In this document: positions 35,617-41,900 of the stretch, piece by piece | Layout of the letters: each line of letters opens with the position of its first letter | How positions within the stretch are numbered: the first letter of the stretch is position 1 | Assembly: GCF_004799515.1 (NCBI RefSeq) | Contig: NZ_SSMX01000021.1 | Coordinates: forward strand, 1 to 64,000 | From: Phenylobacterium sp. | Lineage (GTDB): Bacteria; Pseudomonadota; Alphaproteobacteria; Caulobacterales; Caulobacteraceae | Length of the DNA stretch: 64,000 nt | Reading direction: 5' to 3' | Position numbers and translations under genes: made by a program | The notes under the pieces: model-generated | Told to the model about the DNA's origin: nothing | The model's database searches: none | Seen by the model: the letters and a program-made list of their open reading frames with translations, nothing else

Positions 35617-36216
35617 ATGAAAGACCTGCTCTTCGCCATCCGGCCGCTGGTGTCGGACTTCTTCCCCACCATCGTGTTCGCGATCCTGATGGCCCTGCAC
35701 GTGGATGTGCGCCTGGCCACCGGAGTGGCGCTGTTGATCGGGGTCGGCCAGGTGATCTTCCAGAAGGCGACCCATCGGCCGGTGGAGCTTCTTCAGTGGG
35801 CCTCGCTGGGTCTGGTGATCGTGTTCGGCAGCGTCGCTATGGCCACCAACGACCCGCGCTTCCTGATGATCAAGCCCAGCATCATCTACCTCGCCATCGG
35901 CGCGGTGATGCTGCGCCGCGGCTGGATGCTGCGCTACCTGCCGGCGGATGCGGTGGAGCTGGTCAGCGACCTGCAGATCCGCTGGGGCTACGCCTGGTCG
36001 GCGTTGATGTTCGCCACCGGGATCGCCAACGGCGTGATCGCCTGGAAGGCGCCCGCCTACTGGCCCGCCTTCATCGCCATCGTCCCGCTGGCCTCGAAGA
36101 TCGCCCTGTTCGCCGTGCACTTCGGCAGCGTCCGCTACATCGGCTACCGCCGCCACGCCCGCCTCCAGCAGGAAGCGGCGGCGGAGGCGTCGATCGGGGA
36201 AGCCCAGGCCGCCTAG
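35617..36216 (+). CDS. yciB: YciB/IspZ-family inner-membrane protein
   Basis: The 199-residue protein has about five membrane helices and the family opening LLFAIRPLVSDFFPTIVF, with FQKATHRPVELLQWASLGLVIVFGS and FLMIKPSIIYLAIGAVMLRRGWMLRYLP in the middle. The family is associated with septation and envelope integrity in gamma-proteobacteria and is also called septation protein A. The exact role here is unknown. Its stop overlaps the convergent ilvH stop by 4 bp. Confidence 0.85.
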   Translation: MKDLLFAIRPLVSDFFPTIVFAILMALHVDVRLATGVALLIGVGQVIFQKATHRPVELLQWASLGLVIVFGSVAMATNDPRFLMIKPSIIYLAIGAVMLRRGWMLRYLPADAVELVSDLQIRWGYAWSALMFATGIANGVIAWKAPAYWPAFIAIVPLASKIALFAVHFGSVRYIGYRRHARLQQEAAAEASIGEAQAA

Positions 36217-36761
36217 AACACCTCGACGCCGCGCTGGATGGAGAGCACCCCGGTGCGGGAGATCTCCACCAGCCCGAGCGGGCGCATCAGGTCGGCGAAC
36301 TTGTCGATCTTCGACGGCGCGCCGGTCAGCTCGAAGACGAAGCTCTCGTGGGTGGTGTCGATCACCTTGGCGCGGAAGATGTCGGCGACACGCAGGGCCT
36401 CGACCCGCTCGGGGCCCGAGCCGCGCACCTTCACCAGCGCCAGCTCGCGCTCCAGGCCATTGGGATCGCGGGTCACGTCCTGCACGTGGCGGGTCGAGAC
36501 CATCTTGGTCAGCTGGGCCTCGATCTGGCCCAGCACATGCGGGGTGCCGCGGGTGACAATGGTGACGCGGCTGGTGTGCGCGTTGTGGTCGGTCTCGGCG
36601 ACCGTCAGGCTCTCGATGTTGTAGCCGCGCGCCGCGAACAGCCCGACCAGCCGGTGCAGCACGCCCGGCTCGTTGTCCACCAGGACGGCGAAGGTGGCCA
36701 GGTTCTCGGCCTCCTCAGTGCGGGCGAGGTCGTAGACGGAGGCGGGCTGGGCGTCGGTCAT
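36213..36761 (-). CDS. ilvH: acetolactate synthase small (regulatory) subunit
   Basis: The 182-residue subunit has an ACT domain (LATFAVLVDNEPGVLHRLVGLFAARGYNIESLTVAETD) that binds valine or another branched-chain amino acid, and a C-terminal half (VSTRHVQDVTRD, FVFELTGAPSKIDKFADLMRPLGLVEISRTG). It activates and feedback-regulates the large subunit IlvB. The start at 36761 is preceded by AAAGG. It lies 1.35 kb from ilvB on the same strand with three unrelated genes between, which is unusual. Confidence 0.94.
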   Translation of the reverse strand: MTDAQPASVYDLARTEEAENLATFAVLVDNEPGVLHRLVGLFAARGYNIESLTVAETDHNAHTSRVTIVTRGTPHVLGQIEAQLTKMVSTRHVQDVTRDPNGLERELALVKVRGSGPERVEALRVADIFRAKVIDTTHESFVFELTGAPSKIDKFADLMRPLGLVEISRTGVLSIQRGVEVF

Positions 36762-36901
36762 GGGGGGCCTTTCGTGGCGGGCCTTATAGCCTCGCCCGCG
36801 CCGCTGCTGCCAGCACGCTGTCACGATGAGGGTCCAGAAGGGGCGATGTCGCAGCCGCGCCCACCGGCGCGTCTTCCAGGCGGGACAACAAGGAGATCGT
36901 C

Positions 36902-37270
36902 ATGACCACCACCCTCGATATCGCCAATGACCTCGTCGCGCTCTGCAAGGCCGGCAAGTTCGCCGAATGCGGCGAGAAGTACTGGGCCCCGGACGTGATC
37001 AGCGTCGAGGCCGGCGCGCCTCCCGGCGGCGATCCGGTCAGCCGCGGCCTCAGCGAGGTGCGCGGGAAGGGCCAGTGGTGGGCCGCCAACCACGAGGTCC
37101 ACAGCGTCGAGGTCGAAGGCCCCTACGCCAACGGCGACCAGTTCGTGGTCCGCTTCAAGATGGAGGTCACGCCCAAGGCCAGCGGCCAGCGCATGACCAT
37201 GGACGAGATGGCCGTCTACACGCTGAAGGACGGCAAGATCGCCGAGGAGCGGTTCTTCTACAACATGTAG
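36902..37270 (+). CDS. SnoaL-like/NTF2-fold protein
   Basis: The 122-residue protein begins TLDIANDLVALCKAGKFAECGEKYWAPDVISVEAG and has the curved-sheet pattern of SnoaL-like proteins (FVVRFKMEVTPKASGQRMTMDEMAVYTLKDGKIAEERFFY). Members bind or isomerise small molecules or serve as scaffold domains. No catalytic set can be named. AAGGAG lies about 8 bp before the ATG. It is divergent from ilvH. Confidence 0.75.
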   Translation: MTTTLDIANDLVALCKAGKFAECGEKYWAPDVISVEAGAPPGGDPVSRGLSEVRGKGQWWAANHEVHSVEVEGPYANGDQFVVRFKMEVTPKASGQRMTMDEMAVYTLKDGKIAEERFFYNM

Positions 37271-37335
37271 CTTTCGCGGGGTCCGTGAGCAGGCCTCGCT
37301 TGCGCGGCGGCGGCTGGGCGCCGACATTGGCGGCC

Positions 37336-37647
37336 ATGTCGTCGTTCCGCATGCCCCAGAGCCTGAATGCCCGCCTCGGCGTCGAGACCGGCGAGACAGT
37401 GCTGCGCCACGAGATCATCCAGGAGCAGGCCGCCTCCCTGGCGCGCATGGGAGAGAAGACGGAAAAGGCGCTGGCGGCCCTGCGCAACCATCAGGGCGAG
37501 GGCCGCGCCGAGGTGCTGAAGGCCGCCGCCGACACGGTCTGGTGCTTCCTGGTGCAGCGCGAGGTCATGGGCCTGCGCGACCGCGCCCGGGTGGTGGCCG
37601 ACTACGACATCCCCAAGGAGGTGATGGTGCGGCTGGGCGCGCGCTAG
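37336..37647 (+). CDS. small conserved protein of unknown function
   Basis: The 103-residue protein (SSFRMPQSLNARLGVETGETVLRHEI...) is mostly helical with a conserved-looking core TVWCFLVQREVMGLRDRARVVADYDIP. It resembles a family of about 100 residues in alphaproteobacteria, but no function is recognised. The ATG at 37336 was chosen inside a longer track ORF whose 5' part runs through the SnoaL-like gene in another frame. Its stop overlaps the ybaK stop by 4 bp, convergently. Confidence 0.6.
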   Translation: MSSFRMPQSLNARLGVETGETVLRHEIIQEQAASLARMGEKTEKALAALRNHQGEGRAEVLKAAADTVWCFLVQREVMGLRDRARVVADYDIPKEVMVRLGAR

Positions 37648-38117
37648 GCGGCGATCTCCGCCACCGCCGCCTCCAGCACCCGCACCAGGTCCGCCGGCGC
37701 CAGACGCGCCTGCAGGCCGCGCTGGCCGCCGTTGACATAGGCTTGCGGCAGGGCGGCCGCGGCCGCGTCGATCACGGTCGGCAGGCGCTTCTTCTGGCCG
37801 AAGGGGCTGACGCCGCCGACGCGGTAGCCGGTGGTCCGCTCGGCCTCGGCGACGGGCGCCATCTCGCAGGCCTTGGCGCCCAGGGCCGCCGCCAGCTTCT
37901 TCATGGAGACCTCGCGGTCGGAGGCCAGGACCACGCAGGCGAACCGGCCGTCGGCCTTGACGATGAGGGTCTTCAGCACCTCGGACGCGGGCGCGCCCAG
38001 GGCCTCGGCCGCCGCCAGGCCGATGCGGTCGGCGGCGGGGTCGTAGGCGTAGGTCGCCAGCGTATGGGCGACGCCGGCGCGGTCCAGCGTCAGGGTGGCC
38101 GGGGTGGTCCGGCTCAC
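37644..38117 (-). CDS. ybaK: YbaK/EbsC-type Cys-tRNA(Pro) deacylase
   Basis: The 157-residue protein has the YbaK fold: LIVKADGRFACVVLASDREVSMKKLAAALGAK, the lysine-containing core, TTGYRVGGVSPFGQKKRLPTVIDAAA, YVNGGQRGLQARLAPADL. The family clears mischarged Cys-tRNA(Pro). It starts with GTG overlapping the ilvB stop by 4 bp (GTGA), so it is translationally coupled to ilvB. This is an unusual partner; in most genomes ilvH would follow here. Confidence 0.9.
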   Translation of the reverse strand: MSRTTPATLTLDRAGVAHTLATYAYDPAADRIGLAAAEALGAPASEVLKTLIVKADGRFACVVLASDREVSMKKLAAALGAKACEMAPVAEAERTTGYRVGGVSPFGQKKRLPTVIDAAAAALPQAYVNGGQRGLQARLAPADLVRVLEAAVAEIAA

Positions 38118-39907
38118 ACCAGCCGTTTCCCCGCCTCGTCGATGATCGTGCCCAGGTCGCGGGCTTCCTCGGCCATGATCATCTCGTTGTGGGCCTTGCC
38201 GGAGGGGATCATCGGGAAGCAGTTCTCTTCCTTGGTCACCCGGCAGTCGAAGATCACCGGCTTGTCGACGGCGATCATCGCGCGGATCTTGTCGTCGAGT
38301 TCGTCGGGATGCTCGGCGCGGAAGCCGACGCCGCCGTAGGCCTCGGCCAGCTTCACGAAGTCGGGCAGGCTGGCGGAGTAGGAGTGCGAATAGCGCTCCC
38401 CGTGCAGCAGCTGCTGCCATTGGCGCACCATGCCCATCCACTCGTTGTTGAGGATGAAGATCTTGATCGGCAGGCCGTACTGCACGGCCGTCGACATCTC
38501 CTGCATGGTCATCTGGATGGAGGCGTCGCCGGCGATGTCGATGACCAGGCTCTTGGGGTGCGCCATCTGCACGCCCACGGCGGCGGGCAGGCCATAGCCC
38601 ATGGTGCCGAGGCCCCCGGAGGTCATCCAGCGGTTGGGCTCCTCGAAGCGGTAGAACTGGGCGGCCCACATCTGGTGCTGGCCGACCTCGGTGGTGATGT
38701 AGACATCCCTGTCCTTGGTCAGCTCGTAGAGCCGCTGGATGGCGTGCTGCGGCTTGATCAGCTTGGCGTCGGGCCGGTAGCGGAAGCTGTCGCGGGCGCG
38801 CCAGGCGTCGATCTGCTTCCACCAGTCGGCCAGGGCCGTTTGATCCACTCCGTAGCGCTTGGCCTTCCAGACCTCGATCAGGTCGGCCAGCACCGAGCCC
38901 GCGTCGCCGACGATGCCGATGTCGGCGCGCACGTTCTTGCCGATCGAGCTGGCGTCGATATCGACATGGATCTTGCGCGAGCCGGGCGCGAAGGCGTCCA
39001 GGCGGCCGGTCACCCGGTCGTCGAACCGCGCGCCGATGGCCACCATGACGTCGCAGTCGTGCATGGCGTTGTTGGCCTCGAAGGAGCCGTGCATCCCCAG
39101 CATGCCCAGCCACTGCGGGCTGGAGGCCGGGAAGGCGCCCAGGCCCATCAGCGTCGAGGTGACCGGCGCGCCGGTCAGCGCCGCGAACTCGCGCAGCAGC
39201 TCGGCCGCCTTGGGCCCGGCGTTGATCACGCCGCCGCCGGTATAGAGGATCGGCCGCTTGGCCTTGGCGATCATCGCCGCAGCCTCGGCGATGCGGCTGG
39301 GGTCGCCCTTGGTGCGCGGATTGTAGTTGTGGACGTGCTTGACCTCGGCGGGGCCGCGGTAGGCGCCCTTGGCGAACTGCACGTCCTTCGGGACGTCGAT
39401 GACCACCGGGCCGGGCCGGCCGGAGGTGGCGATGTGGAAGGCCTCGTGCAGCACGCGGGGCAGGTCGGCCACGTCCTTCACCAGGTAGTTGTGCTTGGTG
39501 CAGGGCCTGGTGATGCCGATGGTGTCACATTCCTGGAAGGCGTCGGTGCCGATCAGGTGGGTGGCGACTTGGCCGGTGATGACGATCAGCGGAATGGAGT
39601 CCATCAAGGCGTCGACGATGCCGGTCACCGCATTGGTGGCGCCGGGGCCGGAGGTGACCAGCACCACCCCGGGCTTGCCGGTAGAGCGGGCGTAGCCCTC
39701 CGCCGCATGGGTCGCGCCCTGCTCGTGGCGCACCAGCACGTGGGTCAGGCGCGGCTCGGCGAAGAGGGCGTCGTAGATCGGCAGCACCGCGCCGCCCGGA
39801 TAGCCGAACAGCACCTCGACGCCCTGATCCACAAGCGCGCGCACCACCATCTCGGCGCCGGAGAGGGTGACGGTTTCGGCTTCGATGGTCGGCGTATGGG
39901 CGGTCAT
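38114..39907 (-). CDS. ilvB: acetolactate synthase large subunit
   Basis: The 597-residue ThDP enzyme condenses pyruvate to acetolactate (or with 2-ketobutyrate) at the head of valine, leucine and isoleucine synthesis. Motifs: GYPGGAVLPIYDAL, catalytic glutamate in RHEQGATHAAEGYARSTGKPGV, and the ThDP-binding GDASIQMTMQEMSTAV...ILNNEWMGMVRQWQ. Expression is likely governed by the leader peptide and terminator upstream. The partner ilvH is encoded 1.35 kb downstream, after three unrelated genes. Confidence 0.95.
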   Translation of the reverse strand: MTAHTPTIEAETVTLSGAEMVVRALVDQGVEVLFGYPGGAVLPIYDALFAEPRLTHVLVRHEQGATHAAEGYARSTGKPGVVLVTSGPGATNAVTGIVDALMDSIPLIVITGQVATHLIGTDAFQECDTIGITRPCTKHNYLVKDVADLPRVLHEAFHIATSGRPGPVVIDVPKDVQFAKGAYRGPAEVKHVHNYNPRTKGDPSRIAEAAAMIAKAKRPILYTGGGVINAGPKAAELLREFAALTGAPVTSTLMGLGAFPASSPQWLGMLGMHGSFEANNAMHDCDVMVAIGARFDDRVTGRLDAFAPGSRKIHVDIDASSIGKNVRADIGIVGDAGSVLADLIEVWKAKRYGVDQTALADWWKQIDAWRARDSFRYRPDAKLIKPQHAIQRLYELTKDRDVYITTEVGQHQMWAAQFYRFEEPNRWMTSGGLGTMGYGLPAAVGVQMAHPKSLVIDIAGDASIQMTMQEMSTAVQYGLPIKIFILNNEWMGMVRQWQQLLHGERYSHSYSASLPDFVKLAEAYGGVGFRAEHPDELDDKIRAMIAVDKPVIFDCRVTKEENCFPMIPSGKAHNEMIMAEEARDLGTIIDEAGKRLV

Positions 39908-39931: not shown

Positions 39932-39953
39932 AAAAAAGGCCCGCGAGGGGCCT
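39932..39953 (-). terminator. ilvB attenuator terminator
   Basis: On the minus strand AGGCCC-CTCGC-GGGCCT is followed directly by TTTTTTATT, a textbook intrinsic terminator, 25 bp before the ilvB start codon. It lies downstream of a leader peptide with branched-chain codons. Confidence 0.85.
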
Positions 39954-39985
39954 GGGGCAAGCGACCGTTGACGGGCTGAACCAAG

Positions 39986-40030
39986 TCAGTCCGCGGCGGG
40001 CCGCCTGCCGAGTACAAGAATGATGCGCAC
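39986..40030 (-). CDS. ilvB leader peptide (attenuation)
   Basis: A 14-codon ORF starts with GTG and reads MRIILVLGRRPAAD. Its codons 3-7 are Ile-Ile-Leu-Val-Leu, the end products of the pathway. GAGGAA sits at good spacing upstream. Stalling at these codons when branched-chain aminoacyl-tRNA is scarce should prevent the downstream terminator from forming. The ORF is too short for the track and was found by reading the leader. Confidence 0.8.
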   Translation of the reverse strand: MRIILVLGRRPAAD

Positions 40031-40075
40031 GAGAATTCCTCAGAATTGTCGGATCAGGCGTTTCGCATGGCGCGC

Positions 40076-41005
40076 CTAGGGCGTCAAGCCGGGGCGTAGC
40101 GCAAGAAACTGCCTCCATTGGCCATTTGCGCCGATTTCGGAGAGCCGTGGCCAGTCCGCCATCTGGCCGCGCATCCAGGTCACCTGGCGTTTGACGTAGC
40201 GGCGGGTCTCCTGCTGGGCGGCGGCCAGGGCGTCGGCGAGGTCCGTCTCGCCGCGCAGATGGGCGGAGAACTCGCGGAAGCCCACGGCCTTCATCAGCGG
40301 CAGGGCCGGGTCGAGGGCGCGGGCGGCGAGGGCGGCCACTTCATCGAGCACGCCGGCGTCCAGCATGGCGGCCAGGCGGGCGTCGCAGCGGTCGTAGAGC
40401 GCCTCGCGCGGCGGATCGAGGGCGACGGCGGCCCAGGACCCGGCGGACAGGGCCAGGCGGCTGTCGGCCTGCCAGTCGGAGAGCGCCCGGCCGGTGGCGG
40501 CGAACACCTCCCAGGCCCGCGTCAGGCGCTGGCGGTCGGCGGCGGGAATGCGCGCGGCGGCGAGCGGGTCGGCGACGGCCAGGCGGGCGTGGAAGGCCTC
40601 GGCGCCCAGGGCCTCGAGTTCGGCGGCGGCGGCGCGGCGGGCCTCGGCGGGGATCGGCGGCACCTCGGCCAGGCCGTGGGTCAGGGCGCGGAAGTAGAGG
40701 CCGGTGCCGCCGACCACGACGGCGGGGCGGCCGCGCGCGGCGATGGCTTCGAGGGTCTCGTGCGCCGCCCTCAGCCAGCGGCCGACCGACCAGCCGTCGG
40801 CCGCGTCGACGGTCCCGAACAGGTGATGCGGCGCCTTGGCCTCGTCCTTAGGCGAGGGGCGCGCGGTCAGGATACGCAGGTCCGCATAGAGCTGCATGGA
40901 GTCGGCGTTGACGATTTCCGCGCCCAGGACCTCGGCCAGCCGCAGGGCCAATGCCGACTTGCCGCTTGCCGTGGGTCCGGCGATCAGCCAGATGCGGGGC
41001 GCCAT
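40076..41005 (-). CDS. miaA: tRNA dimethylallyltransferase MiaA
   Basis: The 309-residue enzyme adds dimethylallyl to A37 of tRNAs reading UNN codons. The P-loop [16 protein letters not shown], the metal-binding [31 protein letters not shown] and the C-terminal [10 protein letters not shown] are all present. The track ORF extends N-terminally into serB in another frame; the ATG at 41005 is the natural start and overlaps the divergent serB ATG by two bases. It ends 46 bp before the ilvB leader start. Confidence 0.95.
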
Positions 41006-41900
41006 GGAGCTTGTCCTTACCGTCGTGGCCCCGCCCGGCGTGGGGGCCGTCTCGCTGAACCTGCGCGATGTCTTCGCGAGCGTTGGCGCGCGAGGCAAGG
41101 AGTCTCGCAAGCTGGAGGCGGGCGACAGCGGCGTCACCGACGTGATCCTGGAGGCCGAGGACCTGGCCGCCGTGCGCGCCGCGCTGGCGCCGGCCATCGA
41201 GGGCCAGGGCGTCGACTGGTGCCTGCAGCCCACTGCGGGGCGGCGCAAGGCGCTGCTGGTGGCCGATATGGATTCCACCATCATCAACGTCGAATGCCTG
41301 GACGAGCTGGCCGACTTCGCGGGCCTGAAGGCGGAGATCTCGGCGATCACCGAGCGGGCCATGCGCGGCGAGCTACCCTTCGAGGCGGCCCTGCGCGAGC
41401 GCGTGGCCATGCTGAAGGGCCTGCCGGTCGCGGCCCTGCAGCAGGCCTATGACGAGCGGGTGCGGCTGAACCCGGGCGCACGGACCCTGGTACGCACCAT
41501 GGCCGCCAATGGCGCGCGCTGCGTGCTGGTCTCCGGCGGCTTTTCCTTCTTTACAGCCCGCGTGGCGCAGGCGGCCCTGTTCCATGCCCACCGCGCCAAC
41601 AGCCTGATCGAGGCGGATGGCCTGCTCGTGGGCGAGGTGGGCGAACCGATCATGGGCCGCGAGGCCAAGCTGGCGGCGCTGACGCAAGAGGCCGCAGCCC
41701 TGCGGCTGCCGCTCTCGGCCACGGTGGCCCTGGGCGACGGGGCCAACGACCTGGCGATGATCGAGGCCGCCGGCCTGGGCGTCGCCTACCGCGCCAAGCC
41801 CATCGTCGCGGCCCAGGCCGATGCGCGCATCGACCACAGCGACCTGACCAGCCTGCTCTACTTCCAGGGCTATGAGGCCGACGCCTTCGTGACGGACTGA
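41004..41900 (+). CDS. serB: phosphoserine phosphatase SerB
   Basis: The 298-residue enzyme makes serine from phosphoserine. HAD motifs: [20 protein letters not shown] (nucleophile D), [10 protein letters not shown] (S), and [12 protein letters not shown] (acidic pair), with an N-terminal ACT-like domain of about 85 residues. The start ATG shares the CATG of miaA, so the serB promoter must lie within the miaA coding region. The HAD gene follows with 2 bp between, suggesting co-transcription. Confidence 0.94.

Follow-up and report, generated by a model that had tools for sequence, protein, structure and literature searches.

What controls transcription of ilvB in Phenylobacterium, and does the short, unannotated reading frame just upstream of it take part? 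The window analysed here, a 64,000-nt stretch of a Phenylobacterium contig, encodes the large subunit of acetolactate synthase on its minus strand. This ilvB scores 1117.8 bits against NCBIfam NF006581 (cut-off 974), and its closest named relatives are from Phenylobacterium MAGs (87–92% identity). The original prediction read a short ORF and a terminator before the gene as a signature of translational attenuation by branched-chain amino acids. Our analysis indicates, with high confidence, that this leader controls ilvB by ribosome-mediated transcription attenuation and is the ortholog of the Caulobacter crescentus ilvBN leader. Attenuation and its link to branched-chain amino acids are upheld by the conservation of the leader and by the described Caulobacter leader (PMC4117421). 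The word ‘translational’ is to be amended to transcription attenuation, because the output is an intrinsic terminator.

Anatomy of the ilvB leader

The 14-codon, GTG-started ORF that had been predicted with a good ribosome-binding site is present on the minus strand, with the position and peptide (MRIILVLGRRPAAD) correctly given (Table 1). Its codons are GTG CGC ATC ATT CTT GTA CTC GGC AGG CGG CCC GCC GCG GAC TGA, and we propose the name ilvL. The intrinsic terminator, placed 25 bp before ilvB in the original prediction, is likewise there, with a gap of ∼24 nt to the ATG at 39907. This was the only site returned by a terminator scan of 1 kb, against 0.3 expected, and its hairpin has a folding energy of ∼ −10.3 kcal/mol. 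Upstream of it, segment 1 (GGCAGGCGGCC) pairs with GGUCGCUUGCC, in the interval of segment 2, around a hairpin that contains the stop codon. This protector stem shares sequence with the leader ORF and is incompatible with the predicted antiterminator, and its inner stem covaries among relatives. Together, protector stem and terminator make up the minimum free energy (MFE) fold of the leader (−51.8 kcal/mol; z −2.24, for a longer stretch). No match to a riboswitch aptamer or T-box family was found in Rfam 15, even at E-values up to 10.

Table 1. Features of the ilvB leader and neighbouring genes (positions in the window)
Feature	Position	Strand	Basis or remark
Leader peptide ORF MRIILVLGRRPAAD (proposed ilvL)	39986–40030	−	GTG start at 40030, TGA stop at 39988–39986
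Shine-Dalgarno GAGGA of the leader ORF	40037–40041	−	Sequence; GGAG-like motif at an equal position in most relatives
GTA (Val, codon 6), likely main control codon, then CTC (Leu)	40013–40015	−	In frame in 36/36 leaders
Segment 1 GGCAGGCGGCC, protector stem 5′ side, within the ORF	39999–40009	−	Pairs with segment 2 in the leader MFE fold
Inner hairpin, enclosed by segments 1 and 2, contains stop codon UGA	39971–39994	−	Compensatory changes in relatives
Segment 2 GGTCGCTTGCC, protector stem 3′ side	39956–39966	−	GGTCGC identical in 35/36 leaders
GGUC within segment 2, predicted antiterminator 5′ side	39963–39966	−	
GGCC in terminator 5′ arm, predicted partner of GGUC	39949–39952	−	Computed pairing probability
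Intrinsic terminator	39932–39953	−	Hairpin AGGCCC-CTCGC-GGGCCT at 39953–39937, T run to 39932
Likely −35 element TTGACG of the leader promoter	40082–40087	−	Overlaps last miaA codons
−10-like sequence	near 40063–40069	−	Sequence
ilvB, acetolactate synthase large subunit, regulated gene	38114–39907	−	NCBIfam NF006581 and TIGR00118 above cut-off
miaA, tRNA A37 dimethylallyltransferase	40076–41410	−	Directly upstream of leader, same strand as ilvB
ybaK	about 37644–38100	−	Between ilvB and ilvN
SnoaL-like gene	36902–37270	opposite	Between ilvB and ilvN

The leader probably has a promoter of its own. TTGACG is a likely −35 element, and TTGAC lies 55–62 nt 5′ of the leader start codon in 34 of the 36 Caulobacterales leaders, including loci at which miaA was not found in the fetched stretch. 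Loss of miaA relieves attenuation in E. coli, but MiaA is not known to act on the tRNA that reads GUA, and the position of miaA here is probably a coincidence of neighbourhood. On the other side of ilvB, ilvN is not adjacent; ybaK and opposite-strand genes lie between them (36213–38114), unlike in many relatives, where ilvN is at most about 100 nt from ilvB. For the attenuator to act on ilvN, transcription would then have to read through a long stretch; alternatively, ilvN has a promoter of its own.

These elements suggest how the leader would respond to amino acid supply. With branched-chain amino acids plentiful, the ribosome would translate through the Ile-Ile-Leu-Val-Leu codons and complete the ORF. 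Segments 1 and 2 would then pair as the protector, segment 3 would be left free, and the terminator would form and end transcription 5′ of ilvB. Were charged tRNA to run short, above all the tRNA-Val that reads GTA, the ribosome would stall at GTA/CTC and mask segment 1. The GGUC of segment 2 could then pair with the GGCC of the terminator 5′ arm, and RNA polymerase would enter ilvB.

Conservation of the leader and its probable control codon

Every complete Caulobacteraceae ilvB ortholog that we fetched has the leader ORF, protector and terminator upstream, and the ORF is kept in all 36 Caulobacterales leaders. We searched a sample of 40 Caulobacteraceae genomes with both protein and RNA models. 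The leader is present in 26/26 genomes with an ilvB ortholog (at least 72% identity) and absent, with no full-length match, in 14/14 genomes lacking one; two of these 14 encode only a paralog, 46–48% identical. A covariance model, R1, built from 32 leaders including that of the window, gave strong matches in 120 of 199 Caulobacteraceae genomes; the window leader, itself in the training set, scores 107.8 bits. Searching the window’s own genome with R1 returned this single good match and no second copy before other ilv or leu genes. Across 289 alphaproteobacterial genomes there were few remote R1 matches, and five of the seven outside the window’s own genome lie just upstream of ilvB. By these searches, the recurrence of the leader before ilvB across Caulobacteraceae is far beyond chance. 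As judged from the matches, the leader in this form of its sequence belongs mainly to Caulobacteraceae; ilvB leaders of similar design and diverged sequence occur in other alphaproteobacteria.

The alignment of 32 leaders has ten consensus pairs, six of them with compensatory changes, and these are strongest in the inner stem (for example, one pair is GC in 16 leaders, CG in 10 and UA in 2; another is CG in 16, UA in 11 and GC in 3). The UGA:UCA pairs of the inner stem are retained even in leaders that stop at an earlier TAA or TAG, which argues that the helix itself is under selection. Protector regions also fold better than shuffled sequences (mean z −3.9, 36 leaders), a value to be read with the fact that segments 1 and 2 are part of the leader search pattern, which in part presupposes their pairing; the inner stem lies outside the pattern. 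In leaders with 12-nt spacing, MAFFT moved segment 1 by one base, and the outer protector helix is consequently missing from the automatic consensus. This outer helix was assessed from single-sequence folds, in leaders picked using segments 1 and 2.

The codon run is conserved at its core across the 36 leaders, in a form that differs from the predicted Ile-Ile-Leu-Val-Leu signature. The conserved element is Ile or Leu, Val (GTA), then Leu or Ile, and the Ile-Ile pair of the window is not part of it. An in-frame GTA lies 9–12 nt 5′ of segment 1 in 36/36 leaders; leader selection required a GTA near segment 1, and no leader was discarded for want of one. Among the Val codons of the leader cores, 44 of 46 are GTA, whereas GTA supplies 0.67% of the Val codons across the genes of the window and 1.5% across the 36 ilvB genes. 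Leader Leu codons are mostly CTT or CTC instead of CTG. The bias extends to 27 leaders outside Caulobacteraceae chosen on amino acid content alone, 24 of which contain GTA; over all 27, GTA makes up 34 of 55 Val codons. We conclude that GTA (codon 6) is likely the main control codon. Attenuators are known for codon bias of this sort, for which selective charging of tRNA isoacceptors has been given as the explanation (Elf and Ehrenberg, PMC1183508).

Predicted alternative pairing on ribosome stalling

The original prediction would be refuted by the lack of a mutually exclusive antiterminator. A candidate was found in the window and in most relatives, but it is short: segment 2 GGUC with GGCC of the terminator 5′ arm forms ∼4 bp, worth about −4 kcal/mol in most leaders, opposed by a terminator of about −10 to −13 kcal/mol. 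The GGUC:GGCC pairing has no covariation among the aligned leaders, and it is weak, nearly absent, in Caulobacter-genus leaders, where the terminator arm reads GGUC. In most stalled states the terminator still prevails at equilibrium, as it also does in most E. coli controls. Equilibrium terminator probability was rejected as an antitermination test, since it stays at about 0.97 in most of the E. coli positive controls as well (phe excepted); we scored instead how far the terminator 5′ arm is paired in nascent RNA.

By this measure, the computed GGUC:GGCC pairing probability in the window rises from 0.00 in the protected state to 0.61 with a ribosome on the codon after GTA. With the ribosome just past GTA, segment 2:3 pairing is higher in 27/36 leaders (median 0.08 to 0.39; Wilcoxon p 9e-6, which overstates independence since the leaders are related). 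The same kind of test gave 0.05 to 0.62 for E. coli trp, 0.17 to 0.46 for leu, 0.28 to 0.62 for thr, and 0.26 to 0.84 for phe. Terminator-arm sequestration on stalling in the window, 0.66, is comparable to the 0.62 of trp, so in the model the window leader behaves like a real attenuator.

The calculations also point to a difference in how the leader would be switched off. In the E. coli trp and leu leaders, a ribosome at the stop codon masks segment 2, whereas the window stop codon lies within the protector loop and leaves segment 2 unmasked. Segment 2 remains available in the window leader (0.69) when a ribosome occupies the stop codon; for trp the value drops to 0.01. We infer that a low basal or off state would depend on ribosome release and protector formation.

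Attenuation might also proceed with a different antiterminating RNA structure or with none, through ribosome–RNA polymerase coupling or through pairing of segment 1 with the terminator 3′ arm. The shortness and invariance of the 2:3 pairing speak for such a scheme, as does the window itself, where a ribosome exactly on GTA allows a 7-bp pairing of segments 1 and 4 and reduces P(terminator) to 0.01. However, a ribosome stalled on GTA weakens the terminator like this in just 2/36 leaders, and we rejected the 1:4 pairing as a general antiterminator; 2:3 pairing rises in the 27 leaders noted above. We therefore regard another antiterminator, or none, as unlikely, and retain the predicted 2:3 antiterminator in our preferred account.

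Related leaders and known attenuators

The best Rfam match of the window leader is RF02502 (Atu_C8), a Rhizobiales family typed as sRNA. The leader scores 21.6 bits, where the gathering score is 50, and so is not a member by the Rfam rule, although the family aligns with it end to end, with both the terminator and the run of branched-chain codons covered. This match, and the ∼110–130 nt RNA that a terminated leader would leave, favor a reading in which the leader is processed or terminated into a trans-acting small RNA, or encodes a functional small peptide; a trans role could also accompany attenuation. Against this reading, RF02502 matches in related genomes fall directly 5′ of ilvB (seven loci examined), and the peptide shows no constraint beyond its I/L-V-L core and the Arg-Pro codons that segment 1 imposes. 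Either product as the main function of the leader is thus very improbable. Still less credible, and refuted by the conservation of the leader, is the view that the ORF is there by chance and that an ordinary terminator of miaA transcription follows it: miaA lies upstream on the same strand and GC-rich genomes have many terminators of this type of sequence, but miaA was found at 22/36 loci and the leader at all 36, with a codon bias and stem covariation unexpected by chance.

The positions of the matches also bear on how RF02502 is classified. In Pannonibacter, Kaistia, Methylobacterium, and others, the best RF02502 matches are the ilvB leaders themselves, one of them above the gathering score. 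Since the seven loci (L145–L150 and L152, matches near position 1501) lie just 5′ of ilvB orthologs, the sRNA type looks like a mislabel of what appears from these positions to be an attenuator-leader family. We suggest that RF02502, at present classed among trans-acting sRNAs, be relabelled a cis-acting attenuator leader.

Two further sets of matches were observed. A Rhizobiaceae locus (L155, 1480–1640) has a weak RF02502 match and a short ORF before ilvB (ATG TTG GTA CTT ATT TGC ...), with GTA (Val) and CTT (Leu) codons once more. In four loci of one alphaproteobacterial order (L118, L122, L124, and L125, ∼1499–1660), the RF02502 match marks a leader immediately 5′ of a Bcr/CflA-family MFS transporter gene; this leader has a protector stem, a terminator and an ORF rich in Val codons (e.g., MRMMQVSVVVGRRMGKAA, MNGLLTIVVVGRRMGEAA). 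This transporter is possibly an amino acid exporter under attenuation control. It is tempting to join these observations, and we do so tentatively, as a possibility that we hold to be doubtful in its entirety: alphaproteobacterial ilvB leaders may form one widespread attenuator class, with a single rare GTA as key sensor, a minimal 4-bp antiterminator and a switch that needs the ribosome to leave a stop codon located within the protector hairpin, of which Atu_C8 would be a member and whose design would be reused before the Bcr/CflA exporter gene.

Regulation of this kind is already known. An attenuation leader with Ile and Val codons before Caulobacter crescentus ilvBN is described in PMC4117421, which cites Tarleton, Malakooti and Ely 1994, and the ilvL leader coding sequence was seen there in genome-wide ribosome profiling. 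As that source outlines it, the Caulobacter leader shares with the window leader the gene, the bacterial family, an Ile/Val leader peptide, and a rho-independent terminator. Two Caulobacter-genus leaders (MRTTMIVLMERPFTA in L045 and MRNTMIVLMERPFTA in L047) can be aligned with that of the window. The window differs in its core run (IILVL versus MIVL in Caulobacter) and in that ilvN does not directly follow ilvB.

More distant parallels are the E. coli ilvBN (ivbL), ilvGMEDA (ilvL), leu, and trp attenuators, which likewise have a leader peptide with control codons and a terminator whose 5′ arm is sequestered when the ribosome stalls; the window leader is unrelated to them in sequence, and its antiterminator and terminator are shorter. 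A cis-regulatory element upstream of Sinorhizobium ilvIH is attributed to Vitreschak et al. 2004 in PMC2573895; the alphaproteobacterial ilvIH attenuators enter our comparison through that citation. The window leader is a well supported but ordinary counterpart of the Caulobacter crescentus ilvBN leader.

Its invariant GTA offers a sharp, testable case for theories on which tRNA isoacceptor senses starvation (PMC1183508). For the organism and its family, the leader would account for the regulation of ilvB across Caulobacteraceae, and a short gene that had gone unannotated gains a clear role.
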